From NCBI RefSeq assembly GCF_020523795.1, contig NZ_JAJALI010000001.1, forward strand, positions 744,001 through 808,000: a DNA stretch of 64,000 nucleotides, written 5' to 3'. Each line of letters opens with the position of its first letter. Position 1 is the first letter of the stretch. This stretch comes from Ancylobacter sp. Lp-2 (GTDB lineage: Bacteria; Pseudomonadota; Alphaproteobacteria; Rhizobiales; Xanthobacteraceae). The notes under the pieces were generated by a model. That model was not told the origin of the DNA. It did not search any database and was given only the letters and a program-made list of their open reading frames with translations. Below are positions 13,194 to 56,923 of the stretch, piece after piece. The position numbers and the translations under genes are program-made.

Positions 13194-13415
13194 AGACAGA
13201 CTGGGCACGGCAATGCCTGATTTCGACGACGCGCCCTCCATCTGAAACCAACCCTTGATCGTGCTCGCTACTGACCATGCTCCGGTAGATTGACGTGCTG
13301 ATGTCGTGGGGCAGTCCGGTGCCGGGGCGATCCTGGCGGTTGAGGCGAAAGACGTTCCCCTTTTGTGGCTCGCACAAGGAGCTCGGCAAGCCGAAGAACG
13401 ATCGGGCGAAGCAGC

Positions 13416-16168: not shown

Positions 16169-16172
16169 GGTC

Positions 16173-22707: not shown

Positions 22708-22832
22708 CGACCGGTCCTCGCCGGCCCTCGCCGTTCGCGGGAGTCCCTCCACCCTGCTCACACGCTGACGCTCCACTTTCTGGCGTCGACTGCCGGCGCA
22801 CTCCCTCGGCACTAGAGCGCGGAGCTGATGGA

Positions 22833-23304: not shown

Positions 23305-23745
23305 CTAGTCTTTCTCTGGTCCTACAACATCCTCAACGATCTCCTGCCGCAGCTGCGGCCCCTTGGCGAGGCGCCGGCCGAGCGCGCTGGTGTAGGCCGC
23401 GTAGCGCTCGGAAACCTTGGCCCGGGCCGCCTGGGCGGCCGGTTCGGGCAGCGCGGGGGTGGTGGCGAGCCAGAAGCGTACGAAGGTGGCGAAGGCTTCG
23501 GTCGAGATGCCAAGGTCGCGCTCCAGCCGCGCGAGGCGGCGATCGATCTGGCCGAGGCGCCGGGCAAGAGCGGCCTCCTGACGCTCGGCACTGTCGGGCG
23601 ACAGGAAGGAGGCGATCGCGGCCTGGGCGATCAGGGACATGGACTGGTCGCGCTGGGCGGCGTAGTGCGCCAGCATGTCCATGATGTCGGGCTCGAGATA
23701 GACGGAGATCTGCGCTTTCTTCGTGCGACCTGCCAAGGCGATCAC
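23305..23745 (-). CDS. CopG-family ribbon-helix-helix protein of the traG-rlx operon
   Basis: A 146-residue protein with GTG start 23745 overlapping the traG stop (GTGA). The N-terminus is a ribbon-helix-helix (RTKKAQISVYLEPDIMDMLAHYAAQRDQSMSLIAQAAI). The rest is helical with a coiled-coil (AERQEAALARRLGQIDRRLARLERDLGISTEAFATFVRFWL). In related ICEs this gene sits between traG and trbB and is taken to be a regulator of transfer genes. Here the next gene in the leftward direction is not trbB; the recombinase-ParB module with its HTH gene begins 61 nt beyond. Confidence 0.88.
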   Translation of the reverse strand: MIALAGRTKKAQISVYLEPDIMDMLAHYAAQRDQSMSLIAQAAIASFLSPDSAERQEAALARRLGQIDRRLARLERDLGISTEAFATFVRFWLATTPALPEPAAQAARAKVSERYAAYTSALGRRLAKGPQLRQEIVEDVVGPEKD

Positions 23746-25733
23746 AGCTCCATGCCGTCATTGGGATTGAGGCTGACCTGTCGGGCGACGCCTTGCATCA
23801 GTCCGGTCAAGCGCCGGTTCCTCGCCGCGACGTCCTCCATCTCGTCGTCGCGATCTATGTCGAAATCGAACTCGTTCTCGATTGGCTGCATTTTCTCGGC
23901 CGCCTTCACGCGGCTGAGCTCGGGCTGGTGCCGCGGTTCTGATCCGGTCTGGTCATCGTCTCGACCTTCAACGGCGGCGCTTCCGCCTGTGCCTTCCTGT
24001 GGCTTTGGCAGTGGCAGCGCGGTCCAATCATCGTATTGGGCATTCGAACCACGGGAGGGCGTTGGCGGCGGCAGGAGTCGATCCCGAAAGCGCGGATCCT
24101 CGTAGTAGCGCGCCTTCTTCGCCCGGATCGGGGGTGTGCCGGCGACCATGACGATCTCGTCCGTGGGCGGCAGCTGCATGATCTCGCCGGGCGTGAGCAA
24201 CGGGCGGGCGGTTTCTGAGCGCGATACCATGAGATGACCCAGCCATGGCGAGAGCCGGTGCCCGGCATAGTTCTTCATCGCCTTCATCTCGGTGGCGGTG
24301 CCGAGCGCATCGGAGACGCGCTTGGCGGTGCGCTCGTCATTCGTGGCGAAGCTCACCCGGACATGGCAGTTATCGAGGATGGAGTTGTTCGGGCCATAGG
24401 CCTTCTCGATCTGGTTCAGCGACTGGGCGATGAGGAAGGCTTTCAGGCCATAGCCGGCCATGAAGGCAAGCGCGCTCTCGAAAAAGTCGAGCCGGCCCAG
24501 CGCTGGAAATTCGTCGAGCATGAGCAGCAGGCGATGGCGTCCGCCCTTGGCCTGCAGGTCTTCGGTGAGGCGCCGACCGATCTGGTTGAGCAGGAGGCGG
24601 ATTAGCGGCTTGGTGCGATTGATGTCGGAGGGCGGCACCACGAGGTAGAGGGTCGAGGGAGCCTTGCCGCCGACGATATCGGCGATGCGCCAGTCGCAGC
24701 GTCGCGTCACCTCGGCGATCACCGGATCGCGGTACAGGCCGAGGAAGGACATGGCGGTGGAGAGCACACCGGATCGCTCATTGTCGGATTTGTTGAGCAG
24801 TTCGCGGGCGGCGCTGGCGATGACGGGGTGCGGGCCCGCCTCGCCGAGGTGGGCGGTCTTCATCATGGCGTCGAGCGTGGTCTCGATCGGCCGCTTCGGA
24901 TCAGAAAGGAAGGCGGCAACGCCGGCAAGCGTCTTGTCCGTCTCGGCATAGAGAACGTGGAGGATGGCACCGACGAGGAGCGCGTGGCTGGTCTTCTCCC
25001 AGTGGTTCCGCTTTTCCAGTGAGCCTTCGGGATCGACGAGGATGTCGGCGATGTTCTGCACGTCACGGACTTCCCATTCGCCGCGGCGCACCTCGAGCAG
25101 CGGATTATAGGCGGCGGACTTGGCATTGGTCGGGTCCCACAGCAGCACACGGCCATGCCGGGCGCGGAAGCCGGCGGTGAGCTGCCAGTTCTCGCCCTTG
25201 ATGTCATGGACGATGGCCGATCCCGGCCAGGTCAGCAGCGAGGGCACCACGAGGCCGACGCCCTTGCCGGACCGGGTTGGCGCGAAGCACAGCACATGCT
25301 CGGGCCCGTCATGGCGCAGATAGGCACGGTCGAAGCGGCCGAGCACGACGCCATCCGTGCCGAGCAGCCCGGCGGCCCGAACTTCCTCCCTCTCGGCCCA
25401 GCGCGCCGAACCATAGGTCTCGACCTTTGAGGCCTCACGGCCCCGCCAGACCGACAGGGCGATGGCCACGGCGATGGCGAGGAAGCCGCCGGAGGCGGCG
25501 ATCAGTGCGCCCCGGAAAAATACGTCCGGCGCATAGGCATCGAAAAAGTACCACCACCAGAAGAAGGCCGGCGGGTAGTAGATTGGCAGGTCGAGAAGCG
25601 CGAACCACGGTGCGCCAAGCTGCGCCTGAAAACCGAGGCTCCAGGCCACATATTGTGTTGCACCCCAGATTGCCGTGAGCACGATCAGCAGCACGGAGAG
25701 GATCTGACCCCAGAGGATTTTCGTCGCCGACAT
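23742..25733 (-). CDS. traG: Conjugal transfer coupling protein TraG (VirD4 type)
   Basis: A 663-residue type IV coupling protein. It has N-terminal membrane segments (residues about 8-30 and 75-100) and a Walker A-like APTRSGKGVGLVVPSLLTW. Further motifs are KGENWQLTAGFRARHGRVLLWDPTN and the Walker B stretch LLLMLDEFPALGRLDFF, with ATP-binding closure around LIAQSLNQIEKAYGPNNSILDNCHVRVSFATND. The C-terminal about 90 residues are acidic and low-complexity. It pumps the relaxase-DNA complex into the T4SS channel. It lies between the relaxase gene (21-nt gap) and copG on the same strand. Full length for the family. Confidence 0.95.
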   Translation of the reverse strand: MSATKILWGQILSVLLIVLTAIWGATQYVAWSLGFQAQLGAPWFALLDLPIYYPPAFFWWWYFFDAYAPDVFFRGALIAASGGFLAIAVAIALSVWRGREASKVETYGSARWAEREEVRAAGLLGTDGVVLGRFDRAYLRHDGPEHVLCFAPTRSGKGVGLVVPSLLTWPGSAIVHDIKGENWQLTAGFRARHGRVLLWDPTNAKSAAYNPLLEVRRGEWEVRDVQNIADILVDPEGSLEKRNHWEKTSHALLVGAILHVLYAETDKTLAGVAAFLSDPKRPIETTLDAMMKTAHLGEAGPHPVIASAARELLNKSDNERSGVLSTAMSFLGLYRDPVIAEVTRRCDWRIADIVGGKAPSTLYLVVPPSDINRTKPLIRLLLNQIGRRLTEDLQAKGGRHRLLLMLDEFPALGRLDFFESALAFMAGYGLKAFLIAQSLNQIEKAYGPNNSILDNCHVRVSFATNDERTAKRVSDALGTATEMKAMKNYAGHRLSPWLGHLMVSRSETARPLLTPGEIMQLPPTDEIVMVAGTPPIRAKKARYYEDPRFRDRLLPPPTPSRGSNAQYDDWTALPLPKPQEGTGGSAAVEGRDDDQTGSEPRHQPELSRVKAAEKMQPIENEFDFDIDRDDEMEDVAARNRRLTGLMQGVARQVSLNPNDGMEL

Positions 25734-25754
25734 GGTGATAATCCCTCTCGCGGG

Positions 25755-27494
25755 TCAGAGGCCAAGGCCGCGCTTGCGACCGAAACTCCAGTCGACGCCT
25801 CCATCGTCACGGGCGACGCCGGAGACATGCTTGCCGAGCTGGCGTTCCAGAGAGGGCGACCAGGGCACGAGCTGGAAGCCGAGCCCATCATCGAGCATGG
25901 CGAAGCGACCGGAGGCGAGCACAAGGCGCTGGCGATACGTGCCGGCGACATACTCGCCGGTACCGGCCTTGTTGAATGGCAGGCCGGTCTCGTCGGCGAG
26001 CTTCTCGCCGACGGCCTCCAGTTCCCGGCGGCGGAGTATCTCGATGAGGTTGCGGGCGAAGACGACGCGCCGTCCCTGCCGCTCGGCCATGCCCTCGCGG
26101 ATGAGATGCTCGGCGCGTCGGTCAAGTGCCTGGCTCACCTCGGCGCCAAAGCCGCCGTCTGACAGAGCAACGGGATCACGCGCAATGGCCTGCCGGTCAA
26201 GCCAGGTGGCGCCGGTGGCAGTCACCTGATGGGCGAGATCGAGATCGGAGCGCACAGCGAGTGCCACACGCCGCTTGCCGTGCGCATCATCGAAAGTCCG
26301 GAGCTCGATGATGGAGCCCGGCGCGCCATCGCCAGCGGCATCGAGGTCGGGCAGCCGGATGTGATGGGAGCGCCCGTCCACGCCATCGACGATGGCATAG
26401 GCGGAGCCGTGGAGTTCATCATCGAGACCGCGCGCGACCAGCCGGCCGATGACCGGCACATCGAGGCTCTCGGCGGCGAGGACATAGCTGGCCGTGCCGC
26501 GCTCGATCCCCCGCTCGGTCAGAGCGCGGTGCATGCGCTTGATGATATCGCCGCGCTCACCGAGCGCGCGCAATGTAGCCTCGGCTTCCGGCTCCACCAC
26601 CCATTGCGCGTTGCCGATCTCGGTGGCGAGGCCGAGCGTCTCGAGTTTGCGAAGGCGCCCGATCTTGAGCGCATGATGTTCATCAGGCTGTCGGCCCGGA
26701 ACCGGCGCCATGTCGATGATGCCGCTCTCGCGGACCTCGCGGACAAGCTGCCGGTCGAGCTCGGTCCAGCGCTCGGCCTCGATCTGGCGTTCCAAACCCC
26801 GGCGGATATCGAGCTCGGTGCGCGGGCCGAGTTCCTGGGTGATCAGGTCACGGGCGCGATCGCGCATGCCCTCCTTGATGTAGTCACGGGAGATCACGAG
26901 ATCCTGGCCATCGTCGCGGCGGCCACGGACGATCAGGTGCACATGGGGATGCTCGGTGTTCCAGTGATCGACGGCGACCCAGTCGAGACCGGTGCCGAGG
27001 TCCTTTTCCATCTGCCGGGTGAGGTCACGTGTGAAGGTGCGCAGATCCTCCATCTCCAACGCGTCGTCAGGCGAGATGATGAAGCGGAAATGGTGACGGT
27101 CCTCGCGGCAGCGCTCAGCGAAGGCGTCGACATCCACGCTCTCGATCTCGGGACCAAACAGCCGCGCCTTCTCACCGTCGCGGGTCACCCCCTCGCGGCG
27201 GAGATAGGTGAGGTGTTGACTGAGGGAGCCCGCACGGGCGGTGTGTCGCACGACGCGGGCTTTCACCACGGCGCCACGCGAGTGCGGCGTGATCCGGCGG
27301 CTGGCCTGAAGGCTGGCAACCTGCCCGCTGCCGAAACGCGAGCGGTTGCCGGCGGCAATCTTGCCGGAGCGAGAGACCCCGCCGCCGGCCTTCCGGGCCG
27401 CGGCGAGCGCCTGGGCGATGAAAGGTCGGGCCTGCTGGGCGCGGGTCGAGCGGATGCGGCCGGGACGGACGTGGAACTCGCGATCATCGCTCAT
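25755..27494 (-). CDS. Relaxase, VirD2/TraI-like with DUF3363 C-terminal domain
   Basis: A 579-residue protein from ATG 27494 (MSDDREFHVRPGR). The basic N-terminus is followed by the relaxase domain at about 75-260. Motif I contains the candidate catalytic tyrosine (GSLSQHLTYLRREGV), and motif III has the metal-binding histidines (VDHWNTEHPHVHLIVRGRR). The C-terminal half matches DUF3363 (ELDRQLVREVRESGIIDMAP..., YAIVDGVDGRSHHIRLPDLDA). It nicks oriT and leads the strand into the recipient. The candidate oriT lies directly upstream in the 243-bp gap. Intact and full length. Confidence 0.93.
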   Translation of the reverse strand: MSDDREFHVRPGRIRSTRAQQARPFIAQALAAARKAGGGVSRSGKIAAGNRSRFGSGQVASLQASRRITPHSRGAVVKARVVRHTARAGSLSQHLTYLRREGVTRDGEKARLFGPEIESVDVDAFAERCREDRHHFRFIISPDDALEMEDLRTFTRDLTRQMEKDLGTGLDWVAVDHWNTEHPHVHLIVRGRRDDGQDLVISRDYIKEGMRDRARDLITQELGPRTELDIRRGLERQIEAERWTELDRQLVREVRESGIIDMAPVPGRQPDEHHALKIGRLRKLETLGLATEIGNAQWVVEPEAEATLRALGERGDIIKRMHRALTERGIERGTASYVLAAESLDVPVIGRLVARGLDDELHGSAYAIVDGVDGRSHHIRLPDLDAAGDGAPGSIIELRTFDDAHGKRRVALAVRSDLDLAHQVTATGATWLDRQAIARDPVALSDGGFGAEVSQALDRRAEHLIREGMAERQGRRVVFARNLIEILRRRELEAVGEKLADETGLPFNKAGTGEYVAGTYRQRLVLASGRFAMLDDGLGFQLVPWSPSLERQLGKHVSGVARDDGGVDWSFGRKRGLGL

Positions 27495-27567
27495 GGCGAA
27501 GCCTCGCAATGTGTGATGAAGCGTTGATGCGTCGCCATTTGGGGGACGCGTGAAACGTGTGGTTTGG

Positions 27568-27666
27568 CTCCGCAACGTGCGGAGGGCGCGGAAAACACCC
27601 GAAAAAACAACACCACGACCGCCGCGCACTGTGCGCCCTTTTATCCTGCCCTCGTGCGGTCGTGGT
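27568..27666 (+). other. oriT: Candidate oriT in the gap between relaxase and lytic transglycosylase genes
   Basis: The 243-bp gap 27495-27737 contains no gene but carries three perfect inverted repeats. These are CTCCGCA/TGCGGAG (27568-27574, 27578-27584), ACCACGACCGC/GCGGTCGTGGT (27612-27622, 27656-27666), and nested inside the latter GCGCAC/GTGCGC (27624-27629, 27631-27636). Just inside the right arm is TATCCTGCC (27642-27650), which equals the IncP/Ti nic-region consensus YATCCTG-Y. Cleavage would fall after G27648. Position directly upstream of the relaxase gene, an IncP-type nic core and flanking stems are the expected anatomy of an oriT served by a MOBP-like relaxase. Confidence 0.7.
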
Positions 27667-27737
27667 CCCTGTCCTGCGCTTCCTTGCTCGCCATGGAACG
27701 CCAGAGCCCGACACCATGCGAAAGCGGAGCAGCCTGC

Positions 27738-28400
27738 TCATGATGCCCTCCGCGATGGCGAAGGTGCAACGAACAGCGCGTCCGATCCTGGCGCGAGGAA
27801 CGCGGCTTCGACTGGATAGCTGCGCGCGGGCGGCGTGGCGAACAGCGGAGCCTCGCGCCAGCTTTGCGCCATTGGACGCACCAATCCGGTGGCGCCGGCT
27901 GCAGACTCTTTGTCGAGGATGGTCGCGAGAGCCGCGATGTAAGTGTGCGTCTCCGGCGGCAACGGCTTGCCGGCAAGCGAGGCCTCATAGCGCGCAGGCC
28001 CGGCATTGTAGGCCGCGAGCATGGCGCGGATGCTACCATAGCGGTCATGGAGCTGGCGCAGATAGGCGGCACCGGCGAGGATGTTGTTGCGCGGGTCGAA
28101 CGGATCGGCGCCGAGACCGTAGTGGACGCGAAGCTCGTCCCAGGTCGCGGGCATGATCTGCATCAGCCCCATGGCACCGGCGGGTGAGACTGCGCGGGGA
28201 TCGGCGCCGCTCTCGGCCCGCAGGACCGCGCGGATCCAGTTGGCCGGAAGCTCGAAGCGCTGCGCAGCCTCGTCGATAAAGGCGGCGTAGGACGTGACGG
28301 AATACGCCACGGTCGGCAGCGTGGTTTGCGCGGCGGCAGAGCCGGGCGATGCACCGCCGATCAACAGCCCGGATGCGAGGAAGAGCACAGAGCGATGCAT
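27738..28400 (-). CDS. Lytic transglycosylase of the transfer operon
   Basis: A 220-residue protein from ATG 28400, with signal peptide MHRSVLFLASGLLIGGASPGSAAAQ. The SLT domain runs about 35-165, with catalytic Glu63 in RAVLRAESGADPRAVSPAGAMGLMQIMP, then ILAGAAYLRQLHDRYGSIRAMLAAYNAGP and THTYIAALATIL. It opens peptidoglycan for the conjugation channel (VirB1-like role). It lies 1 nt from the traF gene and upstream of the relaxase in the same leftward operon. The C-terminal 50 residues are proline/alanine-rich. Confidence 0.93.
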   Translation of the reverse strand: MHRSVLFLASGLLIGGASPGSAAAQTTLPTVAYSVTSYAAFIDEAAQRFELPANWIRAVLRAESGADPRAVSPAGAMGLMQIMPATWDELRVHYGLGADPFDPRNNILAGAAYLRQLHDRYGSIRAMLAAYNAGPARYEASLAGKPLPPETHTYIAALATILDKESAAGATGLVRPMAQSWREAPLFATPPARSYPVEAAFLAPGSDALFVAPSPSRRAS

Positions 28401-28401
28401 G

Positions 28402-28947
28402 TCAGCGCACCGCAGCGCGCCAGGTGAAGTTGCCGTCGCCGGCCTCATCCGTGAGCAGTGGCATTGCCCGCCCGATGACGGTCGTAGCCGGGATCGGGCC
28501 GAAGTAGCGCCCGTCGAGACTGTCGCCGACGTCCGGGTTCATCAGGAACAGATAGCCGGAAGCGATACGCCGACAGCCCTGCCAGACCGGCAGATCGCGG
28601 CCCGTGCGGTCGCGCCGAAGGGCTCCTCCCAACGGCACGCGATCGACAGTGATGGCGTTGCCGAGGCGGCAGACCTCCTGTCCCGGAAGCCCCATCACGC
28701 GTTTCAACAGCGGCGTGCCTTCGCCGATATAACCGCGCGCGACGAGGAAAACGGCGAGCGGCGGTGGCGGCATCACCGCGACTAGATCGGTGATCTCGAG
28801 AGCATCCGCCGGCTCGACAGAATAGAGGCCGACAGGGACGCTCGCCGAGACATTCCAGATCAGCTTGAGTGGCGTCGGCACCGTCGCGGCGAGGGCCACA
28901 CCGACGCTGGCGGTCGCAGCCATTAGCACATAGGCGGCGCGGTTCAT
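28402..28947 (-). CDS. traF: S26-family signal peptidase TraF
   Basis: A 181-residue protein; ATG 28947 was chosen (MNRAAYVLMAATASVGVALAA, an N-terminal membrane segment) for its ATGA overlap with the DUF2840 gene. S26 motifs: catalytic Ser36 in SASVPVGLYSVEP, Lys82 in LLKRVMGLPGQEVC, and the C-terminal box YLFLMNPDVGDSLDGRYFGPIPATTVIGRAMPLL. In RP4 TraF cuts and helps cyclise the TrbC pilin. Its presence implies that a TrbC-type pilin exists in the complete element, though no trb gene is seen in this window. Confidence 0.92.
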   Translation of the reverse strand: MNRAAYVLMAATASVGVALAATVPTPLKLIWNVSASVPVGLYSVEPADALEITDLVAVMPPPPLAVFLVARGYIGEGTPLLKRVMGLPGQEVCRLGNAITVDRVPLGGALRRDRTGRDLPVWQGCRRIASGYLFLMNPDVGDSLDGRYFGPIPATTVIGRAMPLLTDEAGDGNFTWRAAVR

Positions 28948-29465
28948 TGTTCGCACTCCCGCCGCTTCAGCCACGCCTGATGGCGCTCCATGCTATAGGC
29001 GCGCGGCTCGAATCCGACACTGATGCGGTGCGCGACATGCCCCCAGTGATCAGGGGCGACGGTTGCCCCATCGATGCCGATCGCCTCGATGGCGTCGATG
29101 TGCTGAAGGATTTTCTCGACCTTCGGCCAGCCATCCACCCGCAGCAGGATTTCGCCGCCGGGGCGCACGAAGGGCAGCGTCTGGTAGCTCTCGCCCGGCG
29201 CCACGCAGCGCACGATGTCGAGGCGGGAGGCCACGGTGCCGAAGTCGTTCGAGGCCCATCGGACAAAGGCGAAGATGCAGCCGGGAGGGAAAGACAGGAT
29301 GCGCCGGCGGCGATCCAGAAGCTGCTCATGTGCGTGATGGCCGAAGCGAATCCAGTTCTCGATGCGCTTCTCGATATGGGTCAGCTCGACATGGGTCAGG
29401 GCATCGGATGGGGGACTGGATGGGGATGCCGTGCTTGCCGCACGGGGCGCAAACGCTTCGCTCAT
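28944..29465 (-). CDS. DUF2840 domain-containing protein
   Basis: A 173-residue protein. After a disordered N-terminus the conserved block is LTHVELTHIEKRIENWIRFGHHAHEQLLDRRRRILSFPPGCIFAFVRWASNDFGTV, then VRPGGEILLRVDGWPKVEKILQHIDAIEAIGID and the C-terminal SVGFEPRAYSMERHQAWLKRR. DUF2840 genes are almost always found between parA/RHH and traF in this ICE family; function unknown. It overlaps both neighbours by 4 nt. Confidence 0.92.
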   Translation of the reverse strand: MSEAFAPRAASTASPSSPPSDALTHVELTHIEKRIENWIRFGHHAHEQLLDRRRRILSFPPGCIFAFVRWASNDFGTVASRLDIVRCVAPGESYQTLPFVRPGGEILLRVDGWPKVEKILQHIDAIEAIGIDGATVAPDHWGHVAHRISVGFEPRAYSMERHQAWLKRRECEQ

Positions 29466-29713
29466 GGCAGATCTCCAGATTGGGGAGGGAATTCGCGCGC
29501 GAGGAGGGCGCGCAGCATCTCGGCGACGGTGACGCCGCGCCGGAAGGCGGCGACCTTGATCCGCCCGCGCAGTTCGGGCGTCACATCGATGGTGAGGCGC
29601 GCGGTGAACGCGGCGCCGGGGCGGTGCTCTGGCGCGACATCTGCCGCCTTGATCCAGTGCTCGGGATCGGCAGGCCTAGAGGCAAAGTCGCGGCGGATCG
29701 GGCGTTCGCTCAT
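29462..29713 (-). CDS. Small ribbon-helix-helix protein next to parA
   Basis: An 83-residue protein with a flexible N-terminus (MSERPIRRDFASRPADPEHW) and a C-terminal ribbon-helix-helix (FTARLTIDVTPELRGRIKVAAFRRGVTVAEMLRALLAREFP). The layout recalls ParG/Omega-type centromere-binding partners of Walker-type ParA proteins, and it directly follows parA with a 4-nt overlap. A role as the DNA-binding partition partner is likely but not shown. Confidence 0.85.
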   Translation of the reverse strand: MSERPIRRDFASRPADPEHWIKAADVAPEHRPGAAFTARLTIDVTPELRGRIKVAAFRRGVTVAEMLRALLAREFPPQSGDLP

Positions 29714-30363
29714 GGCGCGCGCCTCCCGAGGTCAAGACCATTGATCTCGGCGCAGAGCGCGGCGATCTCGCGCGTGGCTGGCCCGGCATCGTCTCGCTCG
29801 AAGACGAGACGCCCGGACTGCGCCGCCGCCGCAAAGGCGATGCGCTGGCCGATGGTGCTGGTGAGCACCGGCGGATCATGGTCAGCCAGCGTCCGCGCGG
29901 TCTCGCGCGCGAGAACCGTGCGCGCGCCGCAGCGGTTGAGGACGAACCGGACCAACAGCGCTGGGCGGTAGATCCGCGCCTCCCGGATCAGCGCCAGCAT
30001 CTCGGCCGACGCCCAGCCGTCGAATGGCGACGGCTGCACAGGGATCAGCACCAGATCGGCAGCGAGCAGCGCCGATCGCATCAGCCCGGCGACGCGGGGT
30101 GGTCCATCGATGACGATGTGATCGGCGTCACGCGCAAGCTCGGGCGCCTCGCGGTGCAGCGTATCGCGGGCAAGCCCGACCACACCGAACAGCCGTGGCA
30201 GGCCCTCGTGGCTGCGCTGCTCCGACCAGTCGAGGCTGGAGCCCTGCGGATCGGCATCGATCAGCGTGATCCGCTGTCCCTGCCGGGCCCATTGCCCGGC
30301 GAGATGCAGCGCCAGGGTGGTCTTGCCGGCCCCGCCCTTCTGGTTGAGGAGCGCGACGATCAT
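29710..30363 (-). CDS. parA: ParA-family partition ATPase
   Basis: A 217-residue protein: deviant Walker A NQKGGAGKTTLALHLA, Walker A' ITLIDADPQGSSLDWSEQRS, Walker B VIDGPPRVAGLMRSALLAADLVLIPVQPSPFDGWA, and C-terminal FVLNRCGARTVLARE. It is a short ParA without an N-terminal HTH (type Ib). With the RHH protein it should segregate the excised element. It lies downstream of repA and the iterons in the same orientation. Confidence 0.93.
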   Translation of the reverse strand: MIVALLNQKGGAGKTTLALHLAGQWARQGQRITLIDADPQGSSLDWSEQRSHEGLPRLFGVVGLARDTLHREAPELARDADHIVIDGPPRVAGLMRSALLAADLVLIPVQPSPFDGWASAEMLALIREARIYRPALLVRFVLNRCGARTVLARETARTLADHDPPVLTSTIGQRIAFAAAAQSGRLVFERDDAGPATREIAALCAEINGLDLGRRAP

Positions 30364-30504
30364 GGCGCGCTCCGCACGTTCACCGGGGTCGCGCTCGTCG
30401 TAGTAGAATGGCGTAGTTCCGTTAGAAAGATTCCGAAGGAATCCGGGTTAGAGAAGTTACGGACGCCGGAAGCCTCTGATTCAGAAGACTGAATCGTCGA
30501 TTTT

Positions 30505-30569
30505 GGTCCCCGATAGCACGAGGATCCGGTCCCTGATGGCACGAGGGTGCTGGTCCCCGATAGCACGAG
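30505..30569 (-). repeat. Three direct repeats (iterons) between repA and parA
   Basis: Three 18-bp direct repeats occur at 30505-30522, 30528-30545 and 30552-30569. On the plus strand they read GGTCCCCGATAGCACGAG, GGTCCCTGATGGCACGAG and GGTCCCCGATAGCACGAG. Copies 1 and 3 are identical; copy 2 differs at two positions. Spacing is 23 and 24 bp, about two helical turns, as for replication-initiator iterons. They lie 6 bp beyond the repA stop codon. The 211-bp gap 30364-30574 has no supported gene. They are the likely RepA-binding part of an origin. Confidence 0.8.
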
Positions 30570-30574
30570 ATGAT

Positions 30575-31462
30575 TCACAGCTTGTCCCCAGATCGGATGG
30601 CCGCGAGACGGCGGCGGGTTGGGAGGGCAAGGCGTGCAGCGTCGATCTCGACGAAAGAGAGGATGTCAGCACCGTCCGTCTGGCGGCGCATGCCGAGCCG
30701 GTAGCCGGGCAGCGCCTGGCGGCCGACGATCGCGCGCAGGTCATAGGCGAAGTGCTTGAGGGGCGAGAGGCTGCCGGATTTGGCGTGGAGGTGAGCGACG
30801 TCGAAGCTCCAGCCGTGGTCCTGGTGCCCGCCATGCTTGCGCACCAGACGGTAGAGCCAGCGCTCAAGTCCGCCCGTCAGCCCGAAATAGGCCCGGTCGA
30901 TGGTGAGCACGAGCGCATCGTCGAGCACGGCCCTGTAGAACCAGTCCGGCAGGATGAGGTCGACGCCGTCGGGCCGGCCGTTGCGGTCGGTGCGCTCCTG
31001 CCATTCATTGATCCAGGAGAAGCGGTGCCGGCGTCCCTCTGCCGGCTGGCGGATGGTGGTCGACACTGTCGTCGACTGGAGACGGTCGAGTGCGGCCTTG
31101 AGGCGCTGATAGTCGCGCAGGGAGGTGCCGCGCCCGACAAAGGTGAGGATCTCATAGGGTGTCGCCGCCATCAGGCGCGAGGTGTGCAGCCCCGCGTCGC
31201 GGGCTTCAACGATCTGGCTCGCCGCCCAGATGAGAATGTCGGCGTCCCAGATGGTCGCCATGCCGTGGTCGGGCACGGCCTCGACCCGGATGGCGATGCT
31301 GCCGGTCCGGAAATCGATCGGCGCGACGCGCGGCGTCTTGGAGAGGGAGAAGAAGGGATAGGTCATGAGATCCTGCGCATCTCGTGGCGCGAAGTCCCCC
31401 GGCAGGGCGCGGAACAGATCGAGCTGTCCGCGCTCCGAGAGGCTGTGATGCCGCGCCGCCAT
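30575..31462 (-). CDS. repA: Replication initiator protein A (RPA family)
   Basis: A 295-residue protein. Family hallmarks: QLDLFRALPGDFAPRDAQDLMTYPFFSLSKTPRVAPIDFRTGSIAIRVEAVPDHGMATIWDADILIWAASQIVEARD, MAATPYEILTFVGRGTSLRDYQRLKAALDRLQSTTVST and the C-terminal YRLGMRRQTDGADILSFVEID. This is the winged-helix initiator typical of IncP-like and ICE-borne replicons. It indicates that the excised circle can replicate from the adjacent iterons. It is followed leftward by iterons and parA, and preceded 8 bp upstream by the AlpA-like gene. Confidence 0.93.
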   Translation of the reverse strand: MAARHHSLSERGQLDLFRALPGDFAPRDAQDLMTYPFFSLSKTPRVAPIDFRTGSIAIRVEAVPDHGMATIWDADILIWAASQIVEARDAGLHTSRLMAATPYEILTFVGRGTSLRDYQRLKAALDRLQSTTVSTTIRQPAEGRRHRFSWINEWQERTDRNGRPDGVDLILPDWFYRAVLDDALVLTIDRAYFGLTGGLERWLYRLVRKHGGHQDHGWSFDVAHLHAKSGSLSPLKHFAYDLRAIVGRQALPGYRLGMRRQTDGADILSFVEIDAARLALPTRRRLAAIRSGDKL

Positions 31463-31470
31463 GGAAGCGT

Positions 31471-31752
31471 TCAGCGCGCGGCGCGGCCAGCGAACGAACC
31501 TGCGGCAAGCGCGTGGCGCTTGGCCGGCAGGACGGAGCCGCGCGGATCGGAGGTCGAGGTGACCGCGCCGCGCTCAGTCCAGGCCTGGAGGTCGTCGATG
31601 GAATAGACGACGCGTCCGCCGAGCTTGCGATAGGCGGGACCGGTGCCATAGGTGCGGTGCTTTTCCAGCGTGCGGGCCGACAGACTGAGAAACTCGGCGG
31701 CTTCCTTGGTGCGCAGATAGCGCGGCGGGAGGGTGGCGAGATCGGGTCGCAT
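31471..31752 (-). CDS. AlpA/excisionase-like helix-turn-helix protein
   Basis: A 93-residue protein from ATG 31752 (MRPDLATLPPRYLRTKEAAEFL). The MerR-like winged helix is LRTKEAAEFLSLSARTLEKHRTYGTGPAYRKLGGRVVYSIDDLQAWTERG, characteristic of AlpA and recombination directionality factors. It sits between the DUF6499/DUF2285 genes and repA. In ICEMlSymR7A the FseA protein (DUF6499-DUF2285) activates the excisionase gene rdfS, so this protein is a reasonable RdfS-like candidate. The integrase, however, lies 24 kb away. Confidence 0.85.
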   Translation of the reverse strand: MRPDLATLPPRYLRTKEAAEFLSLSARTLEKHRTYGTGPAYRKLGGRVVYSIDDLQAWTERGAVTSTSDPRGSVLPAKRHALAAGSFAGRAAR

Positions 31753-31871
31753 GGAGCGGGCCTCCGTGGGCGTGGCGGGAGCCGCCGGAGTGCGGCGGCG
31801 GACGGTGACCACGGTGGCGGAGGAGGATTGTCGGGAGGGATGGGGAAGATTAGGGGGCTAAAGTCCCCACC

Positions 31872-32603
31872 CTAGCGGGGCGACGTGTGGCGGCGTCGCC
31901 GATGAAGGAGCTTGCGGTAATCGCCCTCGATCATGCGCCGCGCATCCTCCACGAGCGCGATGACGGTGTCGCGCAGGGAGGATGTCTTCCAGGGCGCTGC
32001 CGCGACCCGAGCCTTATCGAACAGGCTGGTGGCGATCTCACGATAGGTCGCGCCCGCACGGCGACCGTCCCCCGCTTGAAACATGTGGCGCAAGCGACGG
32101 CGCTGCTGGAGTGTGATCCTCCGGTCTGGCGGCACGGCCGCTCTCTGCATATGGGCCCAGAGCCGTACCAGAGCCTCGATACGATCCGGCAGATGCGCGT
32201 CCATCCGGACGAGGGCACAGAGGGATGGATCGAGGCGATGGCCTTCTGGCAGCATAACGGTGATCGCGTCGCGGCCCGCGCCGACTATCACACAGCTGGA
32301 TGCATGCAGGTGATGGTCCGTGTCTTGAGATGTATTACCAGTGGTCAGGCGGCCACAGGCGGTGTCGCGCTGCGCGACAAGCATGATGAGGCCAGGGTCG
32401 GTTTCCAGGTCCCAGACGACAGAAACGGTTCGGGCATCACGTGCGGGATCGATCGGGAAATCGTAGACCCCAGCGGGCTTGCATGAGCGCCGCGAGGGTC
32501 TCCTTCTCGGGATCGTCGACCACACGGAACCTGGCGTAGTCCCGTCGATACGCCTCGTTGCGCCGAAGCCATTCCCAGGCGAGCTGTGAGGGTGAGAGAG
32601 CAT
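31872..32603 (-). CDS. DUF2285 (RovC DNA-binding-like) part of a split FseA-like activator
   Basis: The frame is open from 32603, but recognisable sequence starts near 32470 (DFPIDPARDARTVSVVWDLETDPGLIMLV). It ends with the DUF2285 domain (ITLQQRRRLRHMFQAGDGRRAGATYREIATSLFD..., LVEDARRMIEGDYRKLLHRRRRH). No usable start codon lies at the beginning of the conserved part. The upstream DUF6499 frame overlaps it in the relative -1 register, so ribosomes would need a +1 shift to join them. In ICEMlSymR7A the equivalent genes msi172 and msi171 are joined by programmed +1 frameshifting into FseA, which activates excision. The sequence TTTCCCG at 32460-32454 (minus strand) is a candidate slip site in the overlap. 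A plain mutational frameshift is the alternative. Confidence 0.8.
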   Translation of the reverse strand: MLSHPHSSPGNGFGATRRIDGTTPGSVWSTIPRRRPSRRSCKPAGVYDFPIDPARDARTVSVVWDLETDPGLIMLVAQRDTACGRLTTGNTSQDTDHHLHASSCVIVGAGRDAITVMLPEGHRLDPSLCALVRMDAHLPDRIEALVRLWAHMQRAAVPPDRRITLQQRRRLRHMFQAGDGRRAGATYREIATSLFDKARVAAAPWKTSSLRDTVIALVEDARRMIEGDYRKLLHRRRRHTSPR

Positions 32604-32652
32604 CTACGAAGGCGTAGGCCTCTGATGACTGCCAGGCGGTTTCCAGGACCAT
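32437..32652 (-). CDS. DUF6499 (transcriptional-regulator) part of the split FseA-like activator
   Basis: A 71-residue protein: MVLETAWQSSEAYAFVDALSPSQLAWEWLRRNEAYRRDYARFRVV..., ending RWGLRFPDRSRT at TGA 32439-32437. The W..SSEAYAF and LAWEWLRRNxxY pattern is the DUF6499 N-terminal domain. It is usually fused to or translated with DUF2285. Conserved sequence continues past the stop in the +1 frame, as described for the DUF2285 part. The short product may also have its own role, as unshifted FseA N-terminus is also made. Confidence 0.82.
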   Translation of the reverse strand: MVLETAWQSSEAYAFVDALSPSQLAWEWLRRNEAYRRDYARFRVVDDPEKETLAALMQARWGLRFPDRSRT

Positions 32653-32759
32653 CGGGATCCCTTTCGAGCGTGCCGCGATACGCCTGACGATCTCGTCTGA
32701 AGGGAGCTTCCGGAAGAAACGCCAGAGACATGGTCTGATGCCAGGCCGGCATCACCCGA

Positions 32760-33020
32760 TCACTTGTCGGGTCGACGCAGGAGTTCCTGATATCCTTGCG
32801 CCGACATCCAGCGCGCCCGCGCCAGATGGGCTGCGTGGACACGCCTGGCATGTTCCGGCGCGGTGAGCGGGTCCAGGCCGAACAGCAGCGCTACAACTTC
32901 CTCCCAGTCGGCGCCCGCCGCTTCGGCATCGAGCAGCCGCAGATAGAGCACGGCATGCCTGCGATCATAGTCGGTGACGGTCGGCGAATCGGGCGGCGTA
33001 TCGTGGAAGGCTCGGGTCAT
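32760..33020 (-). CDS. QseM-like small DUF2285-type protein
   Basis: An 86-residue protein: DYDRRHAVLYLRLLDAEAAGADWEEVVALLFGLDPLTAPEHARRVHAAHLARARWMSAQGYQELLRRP. This pattern parallels the DUF2285 domain of the gene downstream (RAGATYREIATSLF ... EGDYRKLL). In ICEMlSymR7A the antiactivator QseM is a single DUF2285-type domain that blocks FseA and is transcribed divergently from the XRE gene qseC. Here too an XRE gene (33346) lies divergently upstream. Assignment as QseM-like is inference from domain and position. Confidence 0.72.
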   Translation of the reverse strand: MTRAFHDTPPDSPTVTDYDRRHAVLYLRLLDAEAAGADWEEVVALLFGLDPLTAPEHARRVHAAHLARARWMSAQGYQELLRRPDK

Positions 33021-33189
33021 GGCGAGCGTCGCTCTTCATCGTGATGAGCGAGAGACTAGGCCGAACAAGTGGTGGGACGGCAGGCCGTGGAGCGGCATCA
33101 TGTGATGAGGCCACGGCATCGCGGGAGCGTGCCCAGATGCGTACGCCCGCACGTGATCGGCGGCCGGTTAGACGGGTAGCACTCTGTTC

Positions 33190-33289
33190 TACTCTCAGAA
33201 CAATCGAAGCCGCCGGCATCGAGTTCATTCCCGAGAATGGTGGCGGAGCTGGCGTTCGCTTCAGGACGCCATCGCGCAAAGCAGATTAG
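33190..33289 (+). pseudogene. C-terminal remnant of an XRE-type regulator
   Basis: About 32 codons ending at TAG 33287-33289 read TLRTIEAAGIEFIPENGGGAGVRFR. This matches the usual tail of short XRE regulators (A-L-E-A-A-G-V-E-F-I-x-E-N-G-G-G-x-G-V-R-L-R). No HTH precedes it in any frame; the upstream part of the open frame from 33041 is not conserved. It is a decayed fragment inside the 325-bp region between the QseM-like gene and the intact XRE gene. Confidence 0.55.
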
Positions 33290-33292
33290 TCG

Positions 33293-33317
33293 TTACATAT
33301 TATAGTTGATAAACTTG
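33293..33317 (+). promoter_or_regulatory. 25-bp upstream element of XRE gene 1, identical to one at 46615
   Basis: This AT-rich element begins TTACATATTATAG and ends TTGATAAACTTG, and lies 29 nt before the XRE start codon. The same 25 bases occur at 46615-46639 before the second XRE gene, at 28 nt. It contains the short inverted repeat AGTT-GATA-AACT. Perfect conservation upstream of diverged coding sequence points to a functional site, probably an autoregulatory operator overlapping the promoter. Confidence 0.7.
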
Positions 33318-33345
33318 ATCGTCAGAATCCGCGACCGCTTGCGCC

Positions 33346-33621
33346 ATGGACATGCGCAAGCTGGTCGGCCGCAATCTCGCGCGCCTGCGTCAGGCTCAGA
33401 AGCTGACTCAGGAGGAGCTTGCCATGCGTTCGGGGTTCAGCCAGCAATATCTGTCCGACGTTGAGCGCGGCCTCAAGAATCCGACGATCATCACACTGTA
33501 CGAGATCGCGCTGGCCCTGAGCGTGAGCCATGTGGCGCTCGTCGAGCCGGACGGCATGGCGGAGGAGACGGCGCCACAGCCTAAGCGAAGGCGCGCCGCG
33601 GGGACCGGCCGGATCAAGTGA
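33346..33621 (+). CDS. XRE-family regulator 1 (QseC-like)
   Basis: A 91-residue protein from ATG 33346. The Cro/C1 HTH is KLVGRNLARLRQAQKLTQEELAMRSGFSQQYLSDVERGLKNPTIITLYEIALALSVSHVALVEP. A basic tail follows (PKRRRAAGTGRIK). It is transcribed divergently from the QseM-like gene, the arrangement of qseC-qseM in ICEMlSymR7A, where QseC represses and thereby sets ICE transfer state. A paralogue at 46668-46886 is about three-quarters identical and bounds the other side of the cargo island. Confidence 0.9.
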   Translation: MDMRKLVGRNLARLRQAQKLTQEELAMRSGFSQQYLSDVERGLKNPTIITLYEIALALSVSHVALVEPDGMAEETAPQPKRRRAAGTGRIK

Positions 33622-33644
33622 CACGACAACGGAATGTGCGGAGA

Positions 33645-34583
33645 TCACGTTCGGACAGCGCACCGGTGGCCCGGGTATTTCCTTAGTTCGCGCGCGACGG
33701 ACAAAAACCGCGTCAGAGCCGGGTTGGGATTCGAGCGTGACCAGACGGCACGAAGCGGCAATCGCTGTCCTGTGAGAGGACGGCAGGTGACCGGTGCATG
33801 AGATGACACGGAAACGGTCGTCAGCGTCAGGCCCTGTCCAAGCGCGACCAGCTGCAGGAGGTTTGTCTCCCGGGCGAGCGGCTCAACCGAGAAGCAAACG
33901 GTAGACACCTGGGCCAAGAGGTTTCGGAAAACGGGCAGAGCCGGGTCGCCCGCCATGAAAATGAAATGTCTCCCGGCCAGTTCGTCGAGGTCAATCGCGG
34001 GCGACCCGGCGAGAACATCCCGCTCTGCCATGACGATGAGTACCGGCTCGTCCCACAGATCGAGTTCGGCCTCGCCCTTCAGCGCTGGTGCCCCGGCTTG
34101 AATCACGACATCAAGTTCATGCCGCCGAGCCGCCTGACATTGCGAGGCCGGATCTGTGTCGACGAGTTCGACACGGATGTGCGGACAGACCTGTAGGAAG
34201 CGATGAAGCAGCTGCGTGAGGCGGGCGCCCGGTGTGATCGGGGGTAGACCGATGCGAAGCACGCCATCCTGCGCGGTTCCAGCGCGCTCCACCGCCAGTG
34301 CGGCCTGCGATGCCTGTGCCAGAATCTCCCGCGCGGGTCCGAGCAGACGACCTCCCGCGAAAGTCGGCCGCACGCCGGCATGGGACCGGGCAAAAAGGGT
34401 GGCCCCCATGGCATCCTCAATGTCACGAATACGCCGGCTCAGCGTCGATTGCTGTACCCCCAGCCGGTCCGCTGCTCGTCGGAAGCTGCCCTCTTCCGCC
34501 GCGGCTAGAATGAACCGCCAATGTTTCAGCAGGAAGGGATCCAGGCGCTGCGCAATGGCGGCAATATCCCGCTGTGCCTTCAT
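33645..34583 (-). CDS. LysR-family transcriptional regulator
   Basis: A 312-residue protein. The N-terminal winged HTH is HWRFILAAAEEGSFRRAADRLGVQQSTLSRRIRDIEDAMGATLFARSHAGVRPTFAG. The effector domain follows (GVLRIGLPPITPGARLTQLLHRFLQVCPHIRVELVDTD). This LysR type is a frequent companion of trb clusters in ICEs. Here it overlaps the methyltransferase gene by 4 nt (34580-34583) and is downstream of it, so both come from one transcript. It is convergent with XRE gene 1, only 23 nt apart. Confidence 0.9.
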   Translation of the reverse strand: MKAQRDIAAIAQRLDPFLLKHWRFILAAAEEGSFRRAADRLGVQQSTLSRRIRDIEDAMGATLFARSHAGVRPTFAGGRLLGPAREILAQASQAALAVERAGTAQDGVLRIGLPPITPGARLTQLLHRFLQVCPHIRVELVDTDPASQCQAARRHELDVVIQAGAPALKGEAELDLWDEPVLIVMAERDVLAGSPAIDLDELAGRHFIFMAGDPALPVFRNLLAQVSTVCFSVEPLARETNLLQLVALGQGLTLTTVSVSSHAPVTCRPLTGQRLPLRAVWSRSNPNPALTRFLSVARELRKYPGHRCAVRT

Positions 34584-35413
34584 GCGTCGTCCTCGCGAGG
34601 CGTCGACAGGTGGAAGGCGGCGTAGATATAGCCGGTCGTGCGCTCCAGCCGATCATCCATGCCTTGCTCGGCCATCAAGGCGAGGATGGAGGCGCGCTCC
34701 TGCGCGGTCGAGAACCGCCGCTGGCGTTGTCGAAGGTGTGGGCACTCGGTTGTGACGAGACCGAACCCCGCCAGCATCGAGGCAATGTCCTCATAGCCAA
34801 AGGGATGCATCACGAAGCTCGCCACCCAAGGGCGGGACGCGGCGGTCACCTCGTAGACCCGTTTGAATGTTCGGACGGTCGCATAGCCGACGCAGCCCGT
34901 GCTGATGATCAGATCGGCGTCACGGAGAGCTTCACGGTCCGTTGGCGTGAGTTCCTCGGTCTCCAGATTGGCTGTCACGGCTGCTCCAATCAGGCCGACG
35001 TCATGGGCGTAGCGCAACGCCTGGCGGCTGGGATCCAGCCCCACGATCTCAAGGTCCTCCCGCAGCTTCTGGCACGTGAAGAAGGCCTCGTGATCCTCAA
35101 GGCTTTGCGACGCCAGCGGCCCATCCGCCAGGGTATAGGCGGCGTAGAGATCGTCCAACGAGAGCGGAGCGCGCAGCAGGGCCGCGTTGAGCCCGTAGGA
35201 CGCACCGATATCCACGATCTTGAGAGGTCGATGCGGCCGCTGGTGGCGGAGGCGCGTGATGATGGTCTCGAACACCGACTTGGCCCGGTCGCAGATCATG
35301 TAGTCGAGAGCGAGATGGGCCAGGTAATAGGCCTGCGGCCAAGGCTGGTCATAGGTCGGCGAGAAATCGTGCTTGGCCGCCCGCACCCCCGATTCAGATC
35401 CGCTCATCGACAT
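34580..35413 (-). CDS. Class I SAM-dependent methyltransferase-like protein
   Basis: A 277-residue protein; ATG 35413 has an AAGG about 10 nt upstream (ATG 35407 is an alternative). The AdoMet motif I is LKIVDIGASYGLNAALLR, with a preceding helix YYLAHLALDYMICDRAKSVFETII and later strands EIVGLDPSRQALRYAHDVGLIGAAVTANLE and ADLIISTGCVGYATVRTFKRVYEVT. It resembles Rossmann methyltransferases, but the acceptor is unknown. It is divergent from the GntR-ABC-amidase operon. The shared 203-bp region holds several palindromes, suggesting joint control. Confidence 0.8.
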   Translation of the reverse strand: MSMSGSESGVRAAKHDFSPTYDQPWPQAYYLAHLALDYMICDRAKSVFETIITRLRHQRPHRPLKIVDIGASYGLNAALLRAPLSLDDLYAAYTLADGPLASQSLEDHEAFFTCQKLREDLEIVGLDPSRQALRYAHDVGLIGAAVTANLETEELTPTDREALRDADLIISTGCVGYATVRTFKRVYEVTAASRPWVASFVMHPFGYEDIASMLAGFGLVTTECPHLRQRQRRFSTAQERASILALMAEQGMDDRLERTTGYIYAAFHLSTPREDDA

Positions 35414-46614: not shown

Positions 46615-46639
46615 TTACATATTATAGTTGATAAACTTG
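46615..46639 (+). promoter_or_regulatory. 25-bp upstream element of XRE gene 2
   Basis: Identical over 25 bases to 33293-33317, and 28 nt before the XRE gene 2 start. Flanking bases on both sides differ between the two loci, so conservation is confined to the element itself. Confidence 0.7.
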
Positions 46640-46667: not shown

Positions 46668-46886
46668 ATGGATATGCGCAAGCTGGTCGGACGAAATTTC
46701 GCCCGCCTCCGTCAGGCCAAGGACCTGACGCAGGAACAGGTTGCCGAGCGCTCGGGGCTGAGCCAGCAGTATCTCAGTGGTCTCGAACGCGGCCGACGCA
46801 ATCCGACGATCATCACGCTTTATGAGCTGGCACGTGCTCTCGATGTTAGCCATGTCGAGTTGGTTTTCCCACCGGACGAGAAGTGA
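46668..46886 (+). CDS. XRE-family regulator 2
   Basis: A 72-residue protein that is little more than a Cro/C1 HTH: MDMRKLVGRNFARLRQAKDLTQEQVAERSGLSQQYLSGLERGRRNPTIITLYELARALDVSHVELVFPPDEK. It is a paralogue of XRE 1 at 33346 but lacks the basic tail. It is convergent with DUF736 across a hairpin, the usual backbone neighbourhood in this ICE family. It may therefore be the original resident and XRE 1 the extra copy, or the reverse. Confidence 0.92.
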   Translation: MDMRKLVGRNFARLRQAKDLTQEQVAERSGLSQQYLSGLERGRRNPTIITLYELARALDVSHVELVFPPDEK

Positions 46887-55362: not shown

Positions 55363-56673
55363 TCATTCCGATGGCGGAGATATCGCCGCCGGCCGATGCC
55401 CCGACCGGGCTTCTCGGACAGCCCGGTCGGGATCATCCAAGATCGCGTCAATCTCGTCGGCAACCCTGTCGGCGGCGAGCCTGAGCGCTTCGTCTATATG
55501 GATATAGCGCTGCGTCACGCCCCGAGCTGCATGGCCCAGTAGCGCGGCAATGGTCAGTTCGGAAAAGCCCAGGTCGGCCGCGACGCTGGCAAATGTGTGC
55601 CTCAATGTATGCGGGGTTACGTCGTCCAGCTTCGCGCTGGCACACAGCCGATCGAGCACCCGAACGACGCCGATAAAGTGGCCCTCGCCCCAATCCGCCG
55701 GGAAGAAGTACGGTGATGCTGTGTTGGGCTGCCCCAATAAAAGGTCCATAGCTGCGCGGCCTATGACCCGTGTCTGGGCTCCGCTTTTGGTATCTGGAAA
55801 ACGGACCGAGCCTTCATCCGTGTTGAGCCAAAGCCGCTTCACCCCAAGGCCCTCCATTCGCCGAAAACCCGTGAGGAGCAGGAAGCGGATGGCAGCCAGC
55901 CCCGTCGGATGCTCTCCAGCCTCTGCAGCGAAACGTATGGCCCTCCCAAGACGAGCGATTTCGCTGCGGCTGAGGCGGCGTTCCCGCGCCTTTCCGGCAA
56001 GCCTACGAACGCCACGCGCGGGATTGGCGTCGATCTTTCCAAGGCGGACGGCGTGTTCAAAGATGGCATGCAGCGTCGACATGGTGCGCGCGGCCACCCC
56101 TTCCCCGCCGGTGGTCGCTCCGCCTCGACTGCCCGCGCGAGGTTTGGATGTTCTGCCGACGGCAATATCTGCCTGCGCCCCTTCGATATCCCCGAGCTTC
56201 AGCGTGGCAATCAGTCGTCGGCCGAGCAATGGCTTGATGTGAACCTCGATCCGGCTCTTATCCATGGCCAGGGTCGATGCCTTGATGGGGCGACGGCTGC
56301 GGCCGAGTATGCGGCCGGCCTCGGCCTCGGCCAGATACCAGTCGCATACCTCGGCAACCGTGATGCCCTTCAGCTTGCTGTCCGGGCTATCCAGCGGATC
56401 GAGACCCTTGGAGACGGCCACCAGCTTTTCATGGGCGATCCGGCGCGCCTCCTCGACCGTCATCAGCCCGTACCGTCCAATCACGGCGCGACGAGGCCGT
56501 CCTTCGGGCGAGCGATACTGGATCACAAAGCTCTTCAGCCCCGAGGGCATGACCTGAACGCCGAAGCCTCGAAGCTCCCGATCCCAGGCAAAACTCTCCC
56601 GAACCTTGACCCCAACCTTCGAAGGTTTCGGAACTTCCAGCGCGTCGATAAAACGCTTCGTCAGCTTTTCCAT
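55363..56673 (-). CDS. int: Tyrosine-type site-specific integrase (P4-like, DUF4102 type)
   Basis: A 436-residue protein. The N-terminal DUF4102-type arm-binding domain is MEKLTKRFIDALEVPKPSKVGVKVRESFAWDRELRGFGVQVMPSGLKSFVIQYRSPEGRPRRAVIGRYG. A SAM-like core-binding domain spans about 100-230. Catalytic residues: Arg in LLLTGFRRMEGLGV, HTLRHTFASVA, and LLGHAARGVTQRYIH with the Tyr nucleophile. It lies 203 bp from a tRNA-Gly 3' fragment, so it is the integrase that placed this element in tRNA-Gly(GCC). The AT-rich 203 bp between them probably contains arm sites and attR. Confidence 0.95.
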   Translation of the reverse strand: MEKLTKRFIDALEVPKPSKVGVKVRESFAWDRELRGFGVQVMPSGLKSFVIQYRSPEGRPRRAVIGRYGLMTVEEARRIAHEKLVAVSKGLDPLDSPDSKLKGITVAEVCDWYLAEAEAGRILGRSRRPIKASTLAMDKSRIEVHIKPLLGRRLIATLKLGDIEGAQADIAVGRTSKPRAGSRGGATTGGEGVAARTMSTLHAIFEHAVRLGKIDANPARGVRRLAGKARERRLSRSEIARLGRAIRFAAEAGEHPTGLAAIRFLLLTGFRRMEGLGVKRLWLNTDEGSVRFPDTKSGAQTRVIGRAAMDLLLGQPNTASPYFFPADWGEGHFIGVVRVLDRLCASAKLDDVTPHTLRHTFASVAADLGFSELTIAALLGHAARGVTQRYIHIDEALRLAADRVADEIDAILDDPDRAVREARSGHRPAAISPPSE

Positions 56674-56876
56674 AGTGAGTTCAAAGCCCTATCGAAAATC
56701 TGCTTAGATTTTGCGAGGCTAGCCGGATTCTAATCAAATTCCAAGCTCTCAGAAGCGCAAAATAGCGTATGAAGCGTGGCCTTTAGCGCGCACCACTCAA
56801 AAAATAATCATTTATTTATAGAAGATTATCGCACTTTAGCAAACTAGGGGATATTGCAGCGAACGGCTCTCGGGCA

Positions 56877-56923
56877 CCTTGCCAAGGTTGGGGTCGTGGG
56901 TTCGAATCCCATCGCCCGCTCCA
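56877..56923 (+). other. tRNA-Gly(GCC) 3' fragment: att site at the right end of the ICE
   Basis: These 47 nt form the 3' part of tRNA-Gly. They have an anticodon stem-loop CCTTGCCAAGG with anticodon GCC, a variable loop, the T-arm GTGGGTTCGAATCCCAT, the 3' acceptor strand CGCCCGC, discriminator T and encoded CCA. The sequence 5' of 56877 does not resemble the D-arm or the 5' acceptor (GCGGGCG expected), so the tRNA is incomplete. This is the displaced chromosomal 3' end left by integration. The intact, restored tRNA-Gly should lie at the other end of the element, left of this window. Confidence 0.85.

Follow-up and report, generated by a model that had tools for sequence, protein, structure and literature searches.

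A split fseA gene with a predicted programmed +1 frameshift in an integrative and conjugative element of Ancylobacter sp. Lp-2

We analyzed a 64,000-nucleotide stretch of the Ancylobacter sp. Lp-2 genome (contig NZ_JAJALI010000001.1, positions 744,001 to 808,000; hereafter the window, by whose own numbering positions are given), in which a homolog of the activator gene fseA lies in two reading frames within an integrative and conjugative element (ICE). In the reading that we favor, to which we assign a probability of about 0.85, this one split gene would yield a full-length activator only when the ribosome slips by +1 at TTT|C, and the activator would then switch on rdfS and the excision of the ICE. 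The split itself, the shift point, their conservation in the bacterial family, the homologies to QseM and RdfS, the ICE ends, the conjugation genes and the absence of detectable LuxI/LuxR-type genes are observed. The window is a new example of a published system: the protein family, the +1 frameshift, the QseM mechanism and the FseA box are all described in the available part of PMC10359603, which in 2023 reported 4709 FseA homologs, ∼61% of them with a +1 site.

Between positions 33020 and 31471 of the minus strand, Pfam searches identified a qseM-like gene, two fseA open reading frames (ORF1 and ORF2) and an rdfS-like gene, in this order, with a divergent XRE-family gene. ORF1 (32437..32652, minus strand) encodes the DUF6499 half (PF20109, E = 5.4e-21), in which the motif AWEFLRRN is met as AWEWLRRN, a single substitution of Trp for Phe34 in the published numbering. 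The ORF2 frame (31872-32603, minus strand, with an ATG at 32603) matches PF10074/DUF2285 (E = 2.4e-32); its post-shift part (31872..32456, minus strand) comprises a middle region and the DUF2285 DNA-binding half assigned to PF10074. The qseM-like gene (32760..33020, minus strand) encodes a lone DUF2285 protein (E = 1e-8; PDB 7uqt, E = 1.9e-17), a predicted FseA antiactivator. The rdfS-like gene for a recombination directionality factor (31471..31752, minus strand; HTH_17; PDB 8dgl, E = 8.3e-10) probably starts at ATG 31752, and its frame stays open up to GTG 31812. The divergent regulator gene, XRE1 (33346..33621, plus strand; HTH_3, E = 1.4e-15), is QseC-like by position. An earlier note, made from the sequence alone, had described a DUF6499 and a DUF2285 frame overlapping in +1 register and a QseM-like single-domain gene upstream, and the searches bear out both descriptions, including the junction. 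Its RdfS-like assignment holds as to identity but not as to placement, since rdfS lies outside the range 31872..33621 to which it was ascribed. Its QseC-like assignment of the XRE gene agrees with position and with the HTH_3 match, the name resting on position and on a shared operator-like repeat rather than on a comparison with QseC of R7A.

The +1 shift site consists of TTT (32460-32458) followed by C (32457) on the minus strand, in the context TGG GGT CTA CGA TTT CCC G, and the motif TTTCCCG proposed earlier as a slip site lies exactly at 32460-32454 of that strand. ORF1 stops six codons past the slip codon. Across TTT|C the junction letters TGG GGT CTA CGA TTT C CCG ATC GAT CCC read W-G-L-R-F|P-I-D-P. 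Homologs encoded in a single frame, compared by eye, carry WGLRF-FSDP (P0006) and WGLRF-GVDP (P0022) at the same place without a gap. We therefore placed the shift at TTT|C, with exactly one base skipped, because these homologs read gap-free across WGLRF; the conserved sequence thus continues straight across the shift, as had been claimed. The closest single-frame homolog found is P0006 (38% identity, 96% of the query covered), and the others, P0022-P0024 and P0026, are 26-29% identical. Five matches at ≥66% identity cover the ORF2 part alone (65-76% of the query), as expected if their genes are also split.

Conservation of the split was assessed in the same bacterial family, where DUF6499 is present in 107 of 296 genomes (listed matches were taken as loci); a scan of named genomes with ORF2 gave four loci, too few for a wider comparison. 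The 150 usable readings comprised 129 copies distinct around the junction, and one further match was identical to a counted copy. DUF2285 lies in the +1 frame relative to DUF6499 in 125 of the 129, and in another frame after an early +1 stop in three that look decayed; in the last one it is truncated where the contig stops. Not one of the 129 has DUF6499 and DUF2285 joined in one frame. One copy, L144, possesses a long 0 frame, yet DUF2285 again lies in +1 there. The +1 frame closes early in L103 (G264), L010, L025, L048 and L072, which are likely decayed.

The slip codon is strongly constrained. It is TTT in 120 of the 129 distinct copies and TGT in nine, its third base is T in all 129, and the next base is C in 128; elsewhere in the same genes TTT accounts for 194 of 759 Phe codons. 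The preceding positions are biased as well, with CGA making up 77 of 94 Arg codons before the slip codon (background 9.8%) and GGG making up 90 of 127 Gly codons at the site (background 10.8%, both backgrounds from 102 copies). The alignment of 96 copies has 44 conserved amino-acid columns for which synonymous codons are available, and only in the slip column is the commonest residue always encoded by one codon: Phe is encoded by TTT in 93 of 93 copies, and the other three have Cys. Because binomial P values treat related copies as independent, we rested the codon bias on 39 clusters of these copies at 60% identity, of which 38 have TTTC and one TGTC. Together, the family-wide +1 relation and this constraint support the putative programmed +1 frameshift that had been suggested. 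A stimulatory RNA structure was sought by folding 32380-32500 (minus strand), with an unconvincing z of -1.9, and Rfam gave no matches in 29000-35000 up to E = 0.1.

That fseA has simply been broken here by a one-base insertion would fit the presence of two frames instead of one, the existence of single-frame homologs at 26-38% identity and the three family copies (L025, L048, L072) that look decayed past the junction. None of the six close relatives aligned here carries the single uninterrupted frame that the earlier note had named as the sign of a mutated copy. No insertion or deletion separates the window from these six same-genus copies at the junction (identity across the aligned portion of the module, 85-97%), and this shared junction, together with the +1 relation in 125 of 129 family copies, rules out a damaged copy. 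Moreover, the ORF2 variation by codon position among seven close copies (37/33/97) falls mainly at third positions, and the third base of the slip codon is invariant. By these comparisons a broken copy is refuted for practical purposes. It is also very improbable that each ORF is translated from a start of its own and that the two products work together as separate proteins, as proposed for rihF1b/rihF1a of ICEAc. Each frame here does have a start and a stop (the ATG of ORF2 being at 32603), and according to the available part of PMC9601964, rihF1b and rihF1a are both needed as a unit and frameshifting is stated to be absent. Against this, any ATG, GTG or TTG in the ORF2 frame upstream of the slip codon before a stop is found in only 48 of 102 copies, an ATG or GTG within 20 codons after it in only 31 of 102, and the post-slip tails of ORF1 span 2 to 130 codons in the same 102 copies. 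Fused homologs cross the junction gap-free, the fusion in R7A has been published (PMC10359603, available part), and separate translation leaves the constrained slip codon unexplained.

The two halves could also be joined by another route, such as a +1 shift on CGA-U, just ahead of the slip codon, or slippage of RNA polymerase, which we regard as quite improbable. In TTT copies the protein would be unchanged if the shift occurred one codon earlier, as TTC also encodes Phe; CGA is strongly enriched, and the TGT variants do not fit re-pairing. On the other hand, the TTT and CCC runs are just three bases long, which disfavors polymerase slippage, and TTT with the next C is the most constrained feature, which suits re-pairing from UUU to UUC.

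The nine copies with TGT at the slip codon include eight related ones (L090, L091, L106, L166, L167, L171, L176 and L181) and an unrelated one, L174. In all nine, qseM and rdfS occupy their usual positions, and an xre gene is in view in eight. L174 is 60-65% identical to five TTT copies versus 22% to the four of the eight related TGT copies with which it was compared; since it is far closer to the TTT copies, TGT arose at least twice. The eight related copies look maintained, because they align gap-free and vary mostly at third codon positions (8/10/23 in ORF1 and 47/34/100 in ORF2). Retention of the third T among them is weak evidence by itself, as just 9 of 33 comparable columns vary. Classic re-pairing in the P site does not explain a +1 shift at the TGT sites, as the pairing after a move from UGU to GUC is poor. 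Nine UGU-C copies from two unrelated lineages that have qseM, rdfS and an intact ORF2 would fit a shift driven by a G-U wobble.

In the mechanism that we propose, frameshifting would begin with a ribosome pause on the stretch rich in GGGG and on the rare codon CGA, upon which the Phe tRNA would move from UUU to UUC. The resulting FseA would bind, as a dimer, an inverted repeat upstream of rdfS, and RdfS would drive excision by the integrase. The QseM-like lone DUF2285 protein would bind the DUF6499 half and block FseA, and the divergent XRE protein would control the qseM promoter through a 25-bp operator-like element, TTACATATTATAGTTGATAAACTTG, located between XRE1 and qseM (33293..33317). Without quorum sensing, the frequency of excision would depend on how the XRE switch is set and on a low frameshift rate.

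The candidate FseA box is the inverted repeat TGGGGA-N17-TCCCCA upstream of rdfS (31841..31869, minus strand). Exact TGNNNA inverted hexamers with a spacing of 15-17 occur downstream of fseA in 16 of 95 family copies (0.07 expected); these perfect boxes have five arm sequences, with both arms changing together. The published FseA box consists of inverted hexamers spaced by 16 (15 or 16) bp (PMC10359603, available part), and a spacer of 17 is the commonest among the 24 best-scoring of the 95 family copies (13 of 24). The best promoter-like site for qseM, TTCTGA-N17-TATAAT (33327-33299, minus strand), scores 9 of 12, and its TATAAT falls within the 25-bp element. No good sigma-70-like site was found between qseM and fseA (best score 7 of 12), and a stricter scan of 31700-33400 returned no promoter and no terminator. 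We infer that qseM and fseA are co-transcribed. The gap upstream of ATG 32652 varies by codon position as 5/10/10, which is not coding-like, and it was rejected as coding sequence.

Several observations weigh against the favored reading or against single steps of it. The shift appears dispensable for the protein family, given the single-frame homologs P0006, P0022-P0024 and P0026. The ORF1 half is only weakly codon-periodic among the seven close copies (15/10/19). As for the box, the spacer of 17 in the window is one base over the published 15-16 and over that of four of five near relatives with a perfect box, the near arm lies 89-94 nucleotides upstream of ATG 31752 versus 62-67 in the published case, and a perfect box of TGNNNA form is present in only those 16 of 95 copies. 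Finally, according to the available part of PMC9601964, the XRE protein RihR of ICEAc did not regulate the fseA homolog, and deletion of rihF2, which we take as the QseM counterpart, did not cause the loss of transfer seen for rihF1 and rihR. These ICEAc results weaken the XRE step as drawn.

The identification of FseA, QseM and RdfS holds, as judged from the Pfam assignments, the matches to the solved R7A QseM and RdfS structures and the gene order in relatives. Among copies with enough flanking sequence, qseM is directly upstream of fseA in 109 of 128 and rdfS downstream in 115 of 126; a divergent xre gene accompanies 65 of 123. In an ungapped alignment with R7A QseM (7uqt) the aspartate of RLLDA is common to both proteins, and we take it as the published Asp31, with numbering inferred from chain length. 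The net charge calculated from sequence is -2 for the QseM-like protein versus +9 for the DUF2285 part of FseA. A search of solved structures in PDB gave no match to ORF2 up to E = 1. Behind rdfS follow a repA-like gene (30575..31462, minus strand; PF10134, E = 2.2e-89) and a parA-like gene (29710..30363, minus strand; PF13614/PF01656). A metagenome bin labelled Ferrovibrio contains a locus (L143) that is 90% identical to window positions 30246-33127, which may reflect either DNA exchanged recently by distant genera or a contig assigned to the wrong bin.

The 25-bp element is found within seven mismatches in 17 of 102 family copies, and a base-composition shuffle, one per copy, never gave fewer than 10 mismatches. 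A second identical copy in the window (46615..46639) precedes XRE2 (46668..46886, plus strand), a 72-amino-acid XRE gene and second QseC-like paralog. The 13.3 kb between the two repeats holds cargo, namely LysR, ATP-binding cassette (ABC) transporter and decarboxylase-like genes. In A. sonchi (L095, 4058-4307) these 13.3 kb are absent, with the crossover within the 25 bp, and qseM faces XRE2. Four other relatives (G241, G268, G022 and G084) carry the sequence between the two XRE genes, so that a loss in A. sonchi explains the difference more simply. In the same A. sonchi locus (12332-16606), ∼4.3 kb that the window lacks lies immediately interior to the integrase, corresponding to window position 54892. 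A LysR regulator gene (33645-34583) adjoins XRE1 in convergent orientation and may provide an input signal, as the LysR protein AhaR controls the integrase in ICEAc. It is a speculative and rather unlikely extension that the shift proceeds without re-pairing, through a G-U wobble in the P site and a slow A-site codon, that in elements lacking quorum sensing the fseA shift alone sets the escape of FseA from QseM on one XRE-controlled transcript, and that recombination between the 25-bp operators swaps the ruling XRE paralog.

By its gene content, the host element is an ICE: it combines an integrase, att repeats, a relaxase, a coupling protein and mating-pair genes. The transfer genes at 23742..29465 (minus strand) encode a DUF2840 protein, a TraF-like S26 peptidase, an SLT transglycosylase, a relaxase with DUF3363 and the coupling protein TraG. 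The ICE tyrosine integrase (55363..56673, minus strand; PF00589) is adjoined by attR (56876..56923, plus strand), an exact 48-bp copy of the tRNA-Gly 3' end (C11:682599-682673), and because of this repeat we place the ICE in the tRNA-Gly gene with a span of ∼118 kb. Genes of TrbI, CagX, VirB8, TrbL, TrbE-like and T2SSE types lie near its left end, and traG is ∼74 kb from the trb cluster. Adjoining traG, at 19401-22812, are a large serine recombinase gene (best NCBIfam match CcrB, far below the cut-off) and two RepB genes. The same genome has a second element at C11:93026-116898 (L004, L097, L002) with its own split fseA (TTT CCC), rdfS and repA; ∼20 kb away lie a qseM-like gene and, as judged by eye, genes of XRE and LysR type. 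Since the only TrbE-type match of the genome (C11:690486) lies inside the ICE of the window, this second element may lack mating-pair genes of its own.

The earlier note had seen no quorum-sensing genes on the element, and this extends to the whole genome within the reach of the Pfam models LuxI and Autoind_bind. The LuxI model (PF00765), which matches 29 of 61 genomes of the family and 0 of 14 controls, gave no match in the genome, nor did the autoinducer-binding domain (Autoind_bind, PF03472), for which the E. coli positive control was matched.

For comparison with known systems we drew the family biology from the available parts of PMC10359603, PMC11963761 and PMC5882170. ICEMlSymR7A of Mesorhizobium japonicum R7A is alike in its two-frame +1 DUF6499-DUF2285 activator, lone-DUF2285 antiactivator, RdfS, inverted repeat upstream of rdfS, tyrosine integrase, insertion in a tRNA gene and TraG, relaxase and trb genes. 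The layout of its excision switch had been ascribed to the genes described here, and the gene set agrees but the gene order does not: fseA of R7A sits behind traI2 (PMC5882170, available part), whereas in the window qseM is directly upstream of and co-directional with fseA, and rdfS is directly downstream, followed by repA and parA. The window also differs in that traR and traI were not detected in the genome, in its two XRE genes behind identical 25-bp repeats, in tRNA-Gly in place of tRNA-Phe, and in the box spacer of 17. The rihF1b/rihF1a-rihF2-rihR system of ICEAc (Azorhizobium caulinodans ORS571) shares a split FseA homolog, an XRE gene and the absence of traR from the circuit, and it has the LysR protein AhaR in ICE regulation where the window has a LysR gene beside XRE1; in contrast to the reading proposed here, its account, in the available part of PMC9601964, denies that a frameshift occurs and reports rihF1 to be unaffected by RihR. 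RovC of Yersinia, after which PF10074 is named, is likewise a DUF2285-containing transcription factor and a distant relative of FseA (PMC10359603, available part); unlike the window system, it controls type VI secretion, and the PDB search mentioned above links ORF2 to no solved structure. Our literature search found no paper mentioning Ancylobacter together with "integrative and conjugative".

Thus, a switch that is published but often misannotated is the prevailing form in one bacterial family, with none of 129 distinct copies fused. The natural TTT and TGT sites provide a ready test set for the mechanism of bacterial +1 frameshifting. In a genome without detectable quorum sensing, the frameshift and the antiactivator would work without a TraR-type partner.

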